Below are positions 1-38,282 of a DNA stretch of 64,000 nucleotides, piece after piece. Location of the stretch: positions 1 to 64,000 of the IMG/VR virus record IMGVR_UViG_3300006076_000002; one strand, given 5' to 3'. The stretch's first letter is position 1; each line of letters begins with the position of its first letter. The notes below the pieces were generated by a model. The model worked only from the letters and a program-made list of their open reading frames with translations, ran no database searches and was not told the origin of the DNA. Source of the DNA: a virus. The position numbers were made by a program, and so were the translations under genes.

Positions 1-959
1 CCTAATGCATCTAGTGCTGGATAGAAATACATAGCATTCTTCTCATCTGCACTACCTTTCAGGAACCCTACTGCTTCTACATCCTCTACATCATCCACAC
101 TAGCTCTAATGTACATGATACTCTTGTATGGACTATTTGTCTTAACCAGCTTTATTGCATTACTCAGCGCAACCAGTGTCTTACCACTACCACTAGGGGC
201 CTCTACTATAACTAATGGTATCGTATTATCCTGTATAGCTCTACTCAGGAACAACTGCCCACTATTTCTTGGTACTACCTCTTGCTTACGTAGTTCTATC
301 TCACTCTCTTTACCTAGTACATTAATTGTACCTCTCTTCACCGTAGCTAGCTTTACCTGCCCAGTAGCTATATTCTCAAACCTATAGTTGAAGTTGCCTA
401 CAGTATACTCTGAGTCATAATCTAGTATACTCTTACCATGCATAGTTCTGAATGCTTCATCATCATCTACTGTTACATTCTTATTAAACTCTACTTGCTT
501 ATCCTCTACCTCACGTAGCTGTGTAGTATCTAATCCTAACGACTGGGCTCTAATACCACATGCCACATCATTGGTCATGAACACTACTTTCTCGTTAGCT
601 TGTACTACTTTCTTGTAAGCTAATGCACATTCTATGATCTTTCTATCATTAATTACATTCTTCTCCATACCAGCATAACTAGGGTACTCTCTTAAAGCTA
701 CTACAACTATAGTTTTACCTTTTAATTTGTAGTTAATAAATGTTGCATTACCTTTAGTTACCTGCCCTGTATGTTTTGCAGCAGTCATCAGTCTACCAAA
801 CTCTCTTGCCTGGTATGCTAACTCACCTAATCCGCTTTTCTTTGCATCTAGCTCATCTAGCACTACCTCAGGAATAACTATTGTGTCTTCTATATCACCC
901 ACCGTATATACATTATGTGCATCCAGGAGTGGGATATTGCTATCGATAATATACGTCAT
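1..959 (-). CDS. phoH: PIN-PhoH (PhoH2-like) protein, C-terminus beyond window edge
   Basis: An open minus-strand frame starts with ATG at 959 and runs off the left edge without a stop, so the C-terminus is missing. The first ~130 residues look like a PIN ribonuclease domain: they open MTYIIDSNIPLL, then VVLDELDAKKSG, and later MTNDVACGIRAQSLG. After a linker comes a P-loop, APSGSGKT, followed by an IMYIRASV...GFLKG...DEK block typical of PhoH ATPases. PIN-PhoH proteins of known families act as ATP-dependent RNA helicases/ribonucleases; that role is inferred here. The start overlaps the previous stop as TAATG, which implies translational coupling with 959-1207. Confidence 0.88.
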   Translation of the reverse strand, partial: MTYIIDSNIPLLDAHNVYTVGDIEDTIVIPEVVLDELDAKKSGLGELAYQAREFGRLMTAAKHTGQVTKGNATFINYKLKGKTIVVVALREYPSYAGMEKNVINDRKIIECALAYKKVVQANEKVVFMTNDVACGIRAQSLGLDTTQLREVEDKQVEFNKNVTVDDDEAFRTMHGKSILDYDSEYTVGNFNYRFENIATGQVKLATVKRGTINVLGKESEIELRKQEVVPRNSGQLFLSRAIQDNTIPLVIVEAPSGSGKTLVALSNAIKLVKTNSPYKSIMYIRASVDDVEDVEAVGFLKGSADEKNAMYFYPALDAL

Positions 960-1261: not shown

Positions 1262-1771
1262 TTAGAAGGGCAACTCATCTGTACCTTTAGCCGTATCTTT
1301 TTCATTATTAGCCTGCTCATCCATCTTTATAGCCTCACATATTTTACCATACCTATCTATATCCATCCTAGTTTCACCTACTAGTAGTTCCTTATACTGA
1401 AAACTATCCATATAACTAACCAGCTCATCTATATCTACATCGGAGAACATTTCATCATACCCATCGTACTTCTTATCTGATTTATATTTTAGTTCAGCTA
1501 GTAGTTTATGTAGGTGGTTTTCAACTATGTAAGGTATCAGGAACTTTTTAGCCTTAACTATACGGCTTTTAGGTACATATCTATATACCATGAAGAAACT
1601 ACGTAGTACTTCCATCAACCTATCAGTAACTCTTGACATACTATCACTATTAACCATACCTACTTTATGTATCACGGTACCCTCATCTAGTTCTATTTCA
1701 AATATATATACTCTACCGTATGGGTTGTTAGCTACCTCACCTTCTAGTGGCTTACGTTTAACTAGTGCCAT
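1262..1771 (-). CDS. GIY-YIG/T5orf172-like protein with SSB-like acidic tail
   Basis: The first ~110 residues resemble the T5orf172/MUG113 branch of the GIY-YIG fold: GRVYIFEIEL, then a KVGMVNSDS segment, an arginine helix (RVTDRLMEVL), and VENHLHKLL with a closing GYDEMF. The classical catalytic set cannot be confirmed by eye, so nuclease activity is uncertain. The last residues are TDELPF after an acidic linker, very like the C-terminal tip with which SSB proteins recruit partners. Its 5' end overlaps the 3' end of the DUF3307 gene by 10 bases. Confidence 0.7.
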   Translation of the reverse strand: MALVKRKPLEGEVANNPYGRVYIFEIELDEGTVIHKVGMVNSDSMSRVTDRLMEVLRSFFMVYRYVPKSRIVKAKKFLIPYIVENHLHKLLAELKYKSDKKYDGYDEMFSDVDIDELVSYMDSFQYKELLVGETRMDIDRYGKICEAIKMDEQANNEKDTAKGTDELPF

Positions 1772-2100
1772 AGCATTCTGTATATAGCTATCAACGTAAT
1801 TGTGTGTATTAGCTGATCTAACCCTACAACTATGAAGAAATTGTGTACCTCACCTTTAGCCCACAGCTTTGAACTAGCTCTTGATGTAAAGTAGTCAACT
1901 ATAGTATGTACTATTCCATTAATTAGTGCATACATAGGATTTAGTGTAAGTATTCCCATAACTAATGTGTATGTGCCTGTATGAGCTAATAGCCATTTAT
2001 TACTGCTAGATTTGCCTTTAGCCATTTCATCTGTCTGCATTACAAAGTCAGCTACCCAATGTACAAATAATATATACATTAATACATAACTATCTACCAT
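1762..2100 (-). CDS. DUF3307-like membrane protein
   Basis: 112 residues with about four hydrophobic segments. It carries the DUF3307 landmarks: an N-terminal HWVADFVMQTD, a K-rich loop, LLAHTGTYT, then IVHTIVDYFTS and a C-terminal GLDQLIHTI. Proteins of this family occur in phages and bacteria and have no settled function. It is packed between the GGDEF gene (2 bases away) and the GIY-YIG-like gene (overlap), so it is probably part of the same minus-strand operon. Confidence 0.82.
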   Translation of the reverse strand: MVDSYVLMYILFVHWVADFVMQTDEMAKGKSSSNKWLLAHTGTYTLVMGILTLNPMYALINGIVHTIVDYFTSRASSKLWAKGEVHNFFIVVGLDQLIHTITLIAIYRMLWH

Positions 2101-2102
2101 CG

Positions 2103-2546
2103 TCAGTCTCCTCTACGTCTATTCAGTTTAGCTTTCTTTTCGGTAACTAGTTTGTCTACAGTCTCTACCATATTGTTGAAGCTAGTGTAGTCTGCACTGT
2201 ATACCATAGCTGACGTGGCATTAGCTACCTCCACACTACCAGTATTGTCAAAAAATAGCGCCATAAATTCATCACCACCTATCCTATACACTTCCCACAA
2301 ACTGTCTATTGCCTGTATGTCCATAGCTATCTGTCTAATAAGTGTATCACCAGCCCCATACCCTTGCTCTCTATTAACCTTATGCAGTCCAGCAGCATCG
2401 TACATAACTAAGTAGAATGTTTGATTCTGCATCTTAGCCCTAGTCTCAACTTCGAAGTCTCTACGCATTTTCATGCCGGTAAGATGGTCATATTTATATA
2501 ACCTAACCATATTCTTATATATCTTTAGCTCTTCTTCACAAGTCAT
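2103..2546 (-). CDS. GGDEF domain protein (possible diguanylate cyclase)
   Basis: 147 residues that are almost only a GGDEF domain. Visible are the N-terminal DHLTG helix cap with RR (residues 20-29), a metal-site strand LVMYDAAGLHKVN (46-58), GYGAGDTLI (62-70) and an intact YRIGGDEF (87-94). An RxxD inhibitory site is not visible just before GGDEF. The signature suggests c-di-GMP synthesis, but the canonical DxDxFKxxND box is altered to DAAGLHKVN, so activity is open. No sensor domain is attached. It lies in a tight operon between a zinc-ribbon peptide and a DUF3307 gene. Confidence 0.85.
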   Translation of the reverse strand: MTCEEELKIYKNMVRLYKYDHLTGMKMRRDFEVETRAKMQNQTFYLVMYDAAGLHKVNREQGYGAGDTLIRQIAMDIQAIDSLWEVYRIGGDEFMALFFDNTGSVEVANATSAMVYSADYTSFNNMVETVDKLVTEKKAKLNRRRGD

Positions 2547-2548
2547 AG

Positions 2549-2668
2549 TTACCCTTTCTTATAAACTACTGTATCACACTTAGGACATCTAATAACTCCT
2601 GCTATTAGTCTCATCTTCATACCTTTCTTACACTTCCAGCAGTAGTGTTCTAAATATACTATATCCAT
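2549..2668 (-). CDS. Small zinc-ribbon protein, 39 aa
   Basis: A 39-residue frame starting at ATG 2668 and ending TAA at 2549. It has two CxxC pairs, CWKC and CPKC, about 17 residues apart, which is a minimal zinc ribbon. It fills the gap between its neighbours with only 2-base spacing on each side, which supports it as a real gene of the operon. Function unknown; such peptides often bind nucleic acid or act as adaptors. Confidence 0.7.
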   Translation of the reverse strand: MDIVYLEHYCWKCKKGMKMRLIAGVIRCPKCDTVVYKKG

Positions 2669-38208: not shown

Positions 38209-38282
38209 GTACCATTAAGCTCAAAGGTAGAGCTCATTTCCTTTTAAGATTTGGGTTACTGGTTCGACTCCAGTATGGTACT
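38209..38282 (+). tRNA. tRNA-Lys (anticodon TTT), with weak anticodon stem
   Basis: 74 nt: acceptor GTACCAT/ATGGTAC (7 bp), D-arm AGCTC-AAAGGTA-GAGCT, anticodon loop CTTTTAA (U33, anticodon UUU), T-arm ACTGG-TTCGACT-CCAGT. No CCA encoded; discriminator is T rather than the usual A. The anticodon stem ATTTC/GATTT has two U-U mismatches. Function is likely but not assured. Lys codons AAA are abundant in this genome, a usual reason for phages to carry this tRNA. Confidence 0.72.

Follow-up and report, generated by a model that had tools for sequence, protein, structure and literature searches.

The window, i.e. the whole stretch of 64,000 nucleotides that was analyzed, comprises bases 1-64000 of a virus record of 92,858 bases (G000). 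A single open reading frame lies at exactly 2103..2546 on the minus strand. It starts with an ATG and, with the stop codon counted in, encodes a protein of 147 amino acids. The protein matches the Pfam GGDEF domain (PF00990) with residues 18-112 (E=1.2e-9; 38.6 bits versus a gathering cut-off of 23.8), and the GGDEF motif itself is formed by residues 90-94, which the sequence alignment places at 2265..2279 on the minus strand. Outside the GGDEF domain, the protein has only one short helix at the N-terminus (residues 3-18 of the AlphaFold model), and there is no further domain. Pfam, the alignment, and the model thus bore out the preliminary description of the locus, which had proposed a stand-alone GGDEF protein with an intact loop and without a sensor domain. 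The cut-off of the NCBIfam model for the diguanylate cyclase GGDEF domain (TIGR00254, 37.4 bits) was missed by the window protein (31.2 bits) and by its relatives L001 and L002 (33.3 and 27.5 bits); the Yuavirus protein AN14 gp48 scores 58.8 bits on the same model.

These two relatives were found in IMG/VR. L001 carries a 95%-identical copy with the same neighbors. The L002 copy, from a contig that also encodes a T7-type terminase, is full-length and 39% identical, and it overlaps with the beginning of a ThyX gene. PF00990 was passed by all three family records, and scans with the profile, the L002 protein, and a family DNA signature yielded no members beyond them. The stretch GLHKVNREQGYxAGD is common to the three members bar one position, and the GGDEF loop is intact in each of them. 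Comparison of the window gene with that of L001 revealed 35.8 synonymous and 8.2 non-synonymous differences, corresponding to a dN/dS of 0.039. The values for three neighboring genes were all higher (0.169, 0.109, and 0.266). The GGDEF gene is therefore under strong purifying selection, and the Pfam match, the full-length homologs in two other virus contigs, and the low dN/dS confirm that the open reading frame is a real gene and not a chance occurrence. Genes for PilZ or EAL proteins were not present in the three family records, at least two of which (L001 and L002) are fragments.

The GGDEF gene is arranged head to tail with its neighbors on the same strand. The leftward gene order is a 79-aa ORF, a zinc ribbon, GGDEF, DUF3307, T5orf172, an 82-aa ORF, PhoH, ClpP, and, across the record junction, the terminase. 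The zinc-ribbon-like ORF of 39 amino acids (2549..2668, minus strand), read from the sequence, has two CxxC pairs and ends two bases before the GGDEF start codon. The gene for the DUF3307 membrane protein (112 amino acids; 1762..2100, minus strand; PF11750, E=3.7e-11; PHROG 2470, E=7e-19) begins two bases past the GGDEF stop codon, and the same neighbor is found in L001. It is overlapped by the gene for a T5orf172 protein of the GIY-YIG type (169 amino acids; 1262..1771, minus strand), which matches PF10544 barely above the cut-off (E=3.6e-4) and has a homolog in L001. In Alteromonas phage AD45-P1, a GIY-YIG gene likewise stands ahead of the N4 gp69-like and gp68-like genes, and because of this similar placement, the GGDEF gene appears to belong to an accessory stretch at the start of the leftward packaging and structural unit. 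Scans around the GGDEF gene found five promoter-like sites versus a shuffle mean of 6.0, i.e. no excess, and no terminator, which is no more than in the shuffles. Relatives of the DUF3307 protein were found in 68 phage records, 51 of which are from Vibrio phages.

The record G000 ends in a direct repeat of 99 bases (window 1-99 and the last 99 bases), and a PhoH gene is divided across its two ends. The 5′ part of this PIN-PhoH gene lies at 1..959 on the minus strand and the rest at the opposite end, as shown by tblastn with the L001 PhoH protein (959-3 of the window and 9857-9348 of L005); the L001 copy has PhoH and PIN domains. The terminal repeat and the split gene suggest that the record is complete and circularly joined. 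PHROG matches in G000 include the portal, the major head protein, the tape measure protein, the large terminase, DNA polymerase, primase, helicase, and ribonucleotide reductase. These structural and replication genes, together with the head-to-tail neighbors on the same strand, agree with the phage setting that had been assumed beforehand. The portal shares 57% identity with its AD45-P1 counterpart, which is labeled N4 gp59-like in its record, and 41% with that of a Litunavirus (Schitoviridae). On the basis of this resemblance, the virion module is classified by sequence as N4-type, its nearest counterpart being the AD45-P1 module. No integrase was found among the 28 G000 proteins scanned against the PHROGs, megablast of window positions 1-25000 against the phage collection gave no match, and scans of genome contigs with A1 and with the phage ribonucleotide reductase yielded no relative and hence no host assignment.

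The structure of the protein was predicted with AlphaFold from a 47-row alignment, and the resulting model (pLDDT 86.6, pTM 0.75) has a GGDEF fold. VIA-align returned Z 15.3 to LapD (6pwk; rmsd 2.6 over 142 residues) and Z 14.7 to PleD (2v0n; rmsd 2.4 over 140 residues), and the values ranged from 13.6 to 15.3 across the 50 structure entries listed. The top Foldseek matches in the PDB were also GGDEF proteins, and a fold comparison with viral models retrieved the GGDEF proteins of the Bacillus phages G and SP-15 and of Bordetella phage CN1. LapD is a degenerate c-di-GMP receptor, and as it is the best match, the fold alone is no proof of catalysis. The 142 residues of the model cover about 172-175 residues of PleD (272-446 in the comparison with chain 9g85_A), corresponding to a domain that is shorter by about 33 residues. 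The loss is situated past the GGDEF loop and ahead of the last strand, where 43 residues separate F94 and K138 versus 69 between F372 and K442 of PleD. The alpha3/beta4 region is reduced, but the two models differ in this part: a short helix (101-111) is present in the 47-row model, and none in the model built from three sequences, which is weak (pLDDT 52.5). The exact extent of the trimming is uncertain, because the alignment underlying the confident model handles this stretch poorly.

Next, the active site was compared with that of PleD residue by residue. According to PMC7288161, the PleD metal ligands are E370, D327, and, via its main chain, I328; guanine is bound by D344 and N335, and the phosphates are contacted by the side chains of E370, K442, and R446 and by the main chains of F330, F331, and K332. 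K332 is additionally named as a transition-state stabilizer in PMC12943098. In the alignment, PleD D327, N335, D344, E370, E371, and K442 correspond to D50, N58, D67, D92, E93, and K138 of the phage protein. The segment from D50 to D67 is encoded at 2346..2399 and K138 at 2133..2135, both on the minus strand; K138 was assigned from the alignments and from superposition of model residues 1-142 on PleD 275-446. Thus, the places of both metal-binding side chains are filled (D50 and D92, with the GGDEF loop intact), and both guanine ligands (N58 and D67) are kept. Conservation in the 47-row alignment A4 is complete for D50, N58, and E93 and amounts to 46 rows for D92, 45 for K138, and 40 for D67.

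The upstream box departs at two positions. A52 stands for the second Asp of the DxDxFK box, a residue that is not among the PleD ligands given in PMC7288161. H55 replaces K332; all three family members have His here, and 43 of the 44 other A4 rows have Lys. However, the replacement is not confined to the phage family, as cellular GGDEF proteins, namely a Monoglobus protein annotated as a diguanylate cyclase (L088) and L094, also have His at this position. The place of R446 is taken by N142 or R143, varying with gap placement, while K138 fits K442. An RxxD I-site is absent from the phage protein; D81 and W84 occupy the places of its R and D, and the sole RxxD is located near the C-terminus. In comparison with PleD, the phage protein therefore has the same fold and main catalytic residues, but it lacks the receiver domains and the I-site and has K332 replaced. 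The metal box upstream of the loop had been called non-canonical beforehand, and A52 and H55 indeed depart from the consensus, but the D327 equivalent D50 is present. The conclusion drawn from the odd box, that the protein could sequester the nucleotide, was not supported, with D50 and D92 at the metal places and N58 and D67 at the guanine places. The doubt about the metal site is mostly unfounded, since metal and guanine ligands and one phosphate-binding lysine are retained. The main departures are instead the exchange of K332 for His and the shortened alpha3, neither of which had been pointed out before.

Stand-alone GGDEF proteins of 150-odd amino acids are also encoded in Yuavirus and Vojvodinavirus genomes, where many are annotated as diguanylate cyclases. 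The record of YuA gp44 carries the note 'contains diguanylate-cyclase domain; putative role in host cell conversion'. YuA gp44, AN14 gp48, and the proteins of MP1412 and Bordetella phage CN1 resemble the window protein in length (about 150-156 amino acids), the absence of a sensor, a C-terminally shortened GGDEF domain, and the retention of the K442 equivalent. However, they are only 21-24% identical to it, their motifs are D-x-D-S-L-K-W-x-N and S/A-GDEF, and their neighbors encode a DNA-binding protein and antirestriction, unlike those in the window. A profile of these proteins matched 64 viral loci, 52 of them in frames of at least 1,000 amino acids and 5 in frames of less than 200. Loci L016, L017, and L024-L082 make up a large class of GGDEF domains in phages that carry a DSLKWxND motif; most of these domains lie within giant polyvalent proteins. 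The domains of this class are phage-borne and have the same core residues as the window protein, but they fall into a separate clade; the window protein has no DSLKW[IV]N motif and reads AAGLHKVN instead.

For phylogenetic analysis, 44 of the 64 loci were included in alignment A4 and in the trees (43 phage rows, with L070 counted as cellular), and the other 20 were left out as short, near-copies, or gapped. Cellular rows numbered 7 in a 53-row tree and then 13 in a 59-row tree; the domain is short, the branches are long, and the 59-row tree, from a rapid search, is weak in its deep forks. The 43 phage rows formed one clade (support 96/91 in the 53-row and 97 in the 59-row tree), which includes the Yuavirus and Vojvodinavirus proteins, and the three rows of the window family formed a clade of their own (100/99 and 99). 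In each tree, one cellular row fell among the phage sequences' side (C_L011 in the 53-row and C_L091 in the 59-row tree). The partner of the window family shifted with sampling, from C_L014 in the 53-row tree to C_L088 in the 59-row tree (SH-aLRT 88). The latter is the diguanylate cyclase of Monoglobus pectinilyticus, which has the motif NGLHEIN. Profile comparison related the window family and the other phage group with a probability of 98%, but only within the GGDEF core common to both. A common origin with the Yuavirus and polyvalent-protein domains was rejected by the two trees, with their few cellular rows and long branches. As the window family is not part of the main clade of phage GGDEF domains and clusters with a cellular type from clostridia, it was apparently acquired separately, and the sequences point to a cellular GGDEF protein of the NGLHE type as the source. 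The cellular NGLHE proteins (L088 and L094) share the His at the K332 position with the window protein, but they are long, with upstream regions and a longer alpha3; the L088 frame has 792 residues, and L094, on a 290-kb contig, is a membrane GGDEF frame of 360 residues with hydrophobic segments.

Several matches were not accepted as phage relatives. L009-L014, five unannotated faecal contigs named 'Bacteriophage sp.' and one unannotated 'Staphylococcus phage' record, encode GGDEF proteins of 356-816 amino acids that seem to be bacterial, and they served as cellular rows; L010-L014 are MT83xxxx records of the phage collection with long, sensor-type genes. ERS-1 (H72) was left out as a broken copy with an internal stop.

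Phage-borne GGDEF proteins are known from Yuavirus YuA (gp44), Bordetella Vojvodinavirus, and Mu-like viruses, and the idea of c-di-GMP synthesis by phages is already in print. A diguanylate cyclase encoded by a marine Mu-like virus is described in PMC7785012, which also refers to viromes containing genes of this kind, and PMC5512222 reports GGDEF domains in polyvalent proteins and proposes nucleotide-signal roles for them. A search of the open-access literature found no published work on the 147-aa family, which appears to be a new variant among the known phage GGDEF proteins, with an acquisition of its own.

In many bacteria, c-di-GMP sets the choice between swimming and settling, and it gates several phage receptors. 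The balance of the evidence from sequence and model leans, by a modest degree, towards a minimal and probably unregulated diguanylate cyclase that would raise the c-di-GMP level of the host, and the synthesis of c-di-GMP in the infected cell, as suggested initially, was retained as the best reading. Two copies of the protein would meet, each with bound GTP and metal, and the dimer would join the two GTP molecules to c-di-GMP in the infected bacterium. Because a sensor domain and an RxxD product-inhibition site are absent, activity would be limited by expression and dimer formation only. Judging from its position, the gene would be transcribed near the start of the leftward unit, which continues into the packaging and structural genes. 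The increase in c-di-GMP might then turn the host from motile to sessile and alter surface polymers under c-di-GMP control. The one phenotype that comes close, and a precedent for this reading, is that of Bordetella phage LK3, which has a GGDEF gene and the lysogens of which form more biofilm. They are also more motile, however, which does not follow from a simple rise in c-di-GMP; in PMC8471281, the cause is not established and the authors leave the mechanism open.

The replacement of K332, the ambiguous R446, the cut alpha3, the missed TIGR00254 cut-off, and the lack of a dimerization domain apart from the short helix argue against a cyclase. With the exception of the TIGR00254 score, the same features, together with the receptor LapD as the top fold match, would fit a catalytically dead protein that binds GTP or c-di-GMP, or that pairs with and poisons host GGDEF proteins as a sponge or dominant-negative partner. 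We regard this as unlikely. All metal and guanine residues are kept under strong purifying selection with the loop intact in every family member, no RxxD for binding of c-di-GMP is present, and cellular GGDEF proteins with His in place of K332 exist as well.

The retained guanine ligands N58 and D67 favor GTP as the substrate, and they also speak against a different cyclic or linear nucleotide as the product, which might, for example, crowd or mislead a cyclic-nucleotide defense of the host. Palm-domain relatives such as OptS of Panoptes make other cyclic dinucleotides, with which phage proteins interfere (PMC12657218), and a similar role has been proposed for the GGDEF domains of phage polyvalent proteins (PMC5512222). 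Nevertheless, no model of the defense-system library PADLOC matched the window protein or the L002 copy, and another product seems improbable. That the family is carried by only three virus records, including that of the window, would fit a passenger gene without benefit for the phage, or a structural or regulatory protein that merely reuses the fold. This we consider very improbable, as the dN/dS of 0.039 lies below those of three neighboring genes and the catalytic residues are also kept in the L002 copy, which is 39% identical and comes from a different type of phage.

If the protein is an active diguanylate cyclase, it would, to our knowledge, be among the smallest natural enzymes of this type, with 147 residues and neither sensor nor product-inhibition site. 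It would offer a clean test of which parts of a GGDEF domain are dispensable, and it would be evidence for more than one acquisition of c-di-GMP synthesis by phages. If it is inactive, a phage-made GGDEF sponge or poison would be useful as well. A further idea, suggested by analogy, is that a phage with an N4-type virion uses a trimmed, inhibitor-free c-di-GMP synthase to control the receptor polymers of the infected cell. For infection of E. coli, N4 requires c-di-GMP as well as a c-di-GMP-driven glycan, and phage S6, a member of the Schitoviridae, depends on cellulose (PMC8669472 and PMC9544554). We give this idea little chance of being correct; if true, infected cells might be coated or clumped, neighboring cells might be helped to pick up progeny, or the entry of rivals might be altered.

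Two minor features of the phage genome were also observed. The large-terminase frame (PHROG 38) at 4780-7686 of L005 (87780-90686 of G000), on the minus strand, has 968 amino acids versus 520 in AD45-P1 and is likely to contain an intein, with an intein splicing domain (PF14890, E=3.1e-9) at residues 545-911. One tRNA-Lys (TTT) gene is present at 38209-38282 of the window.
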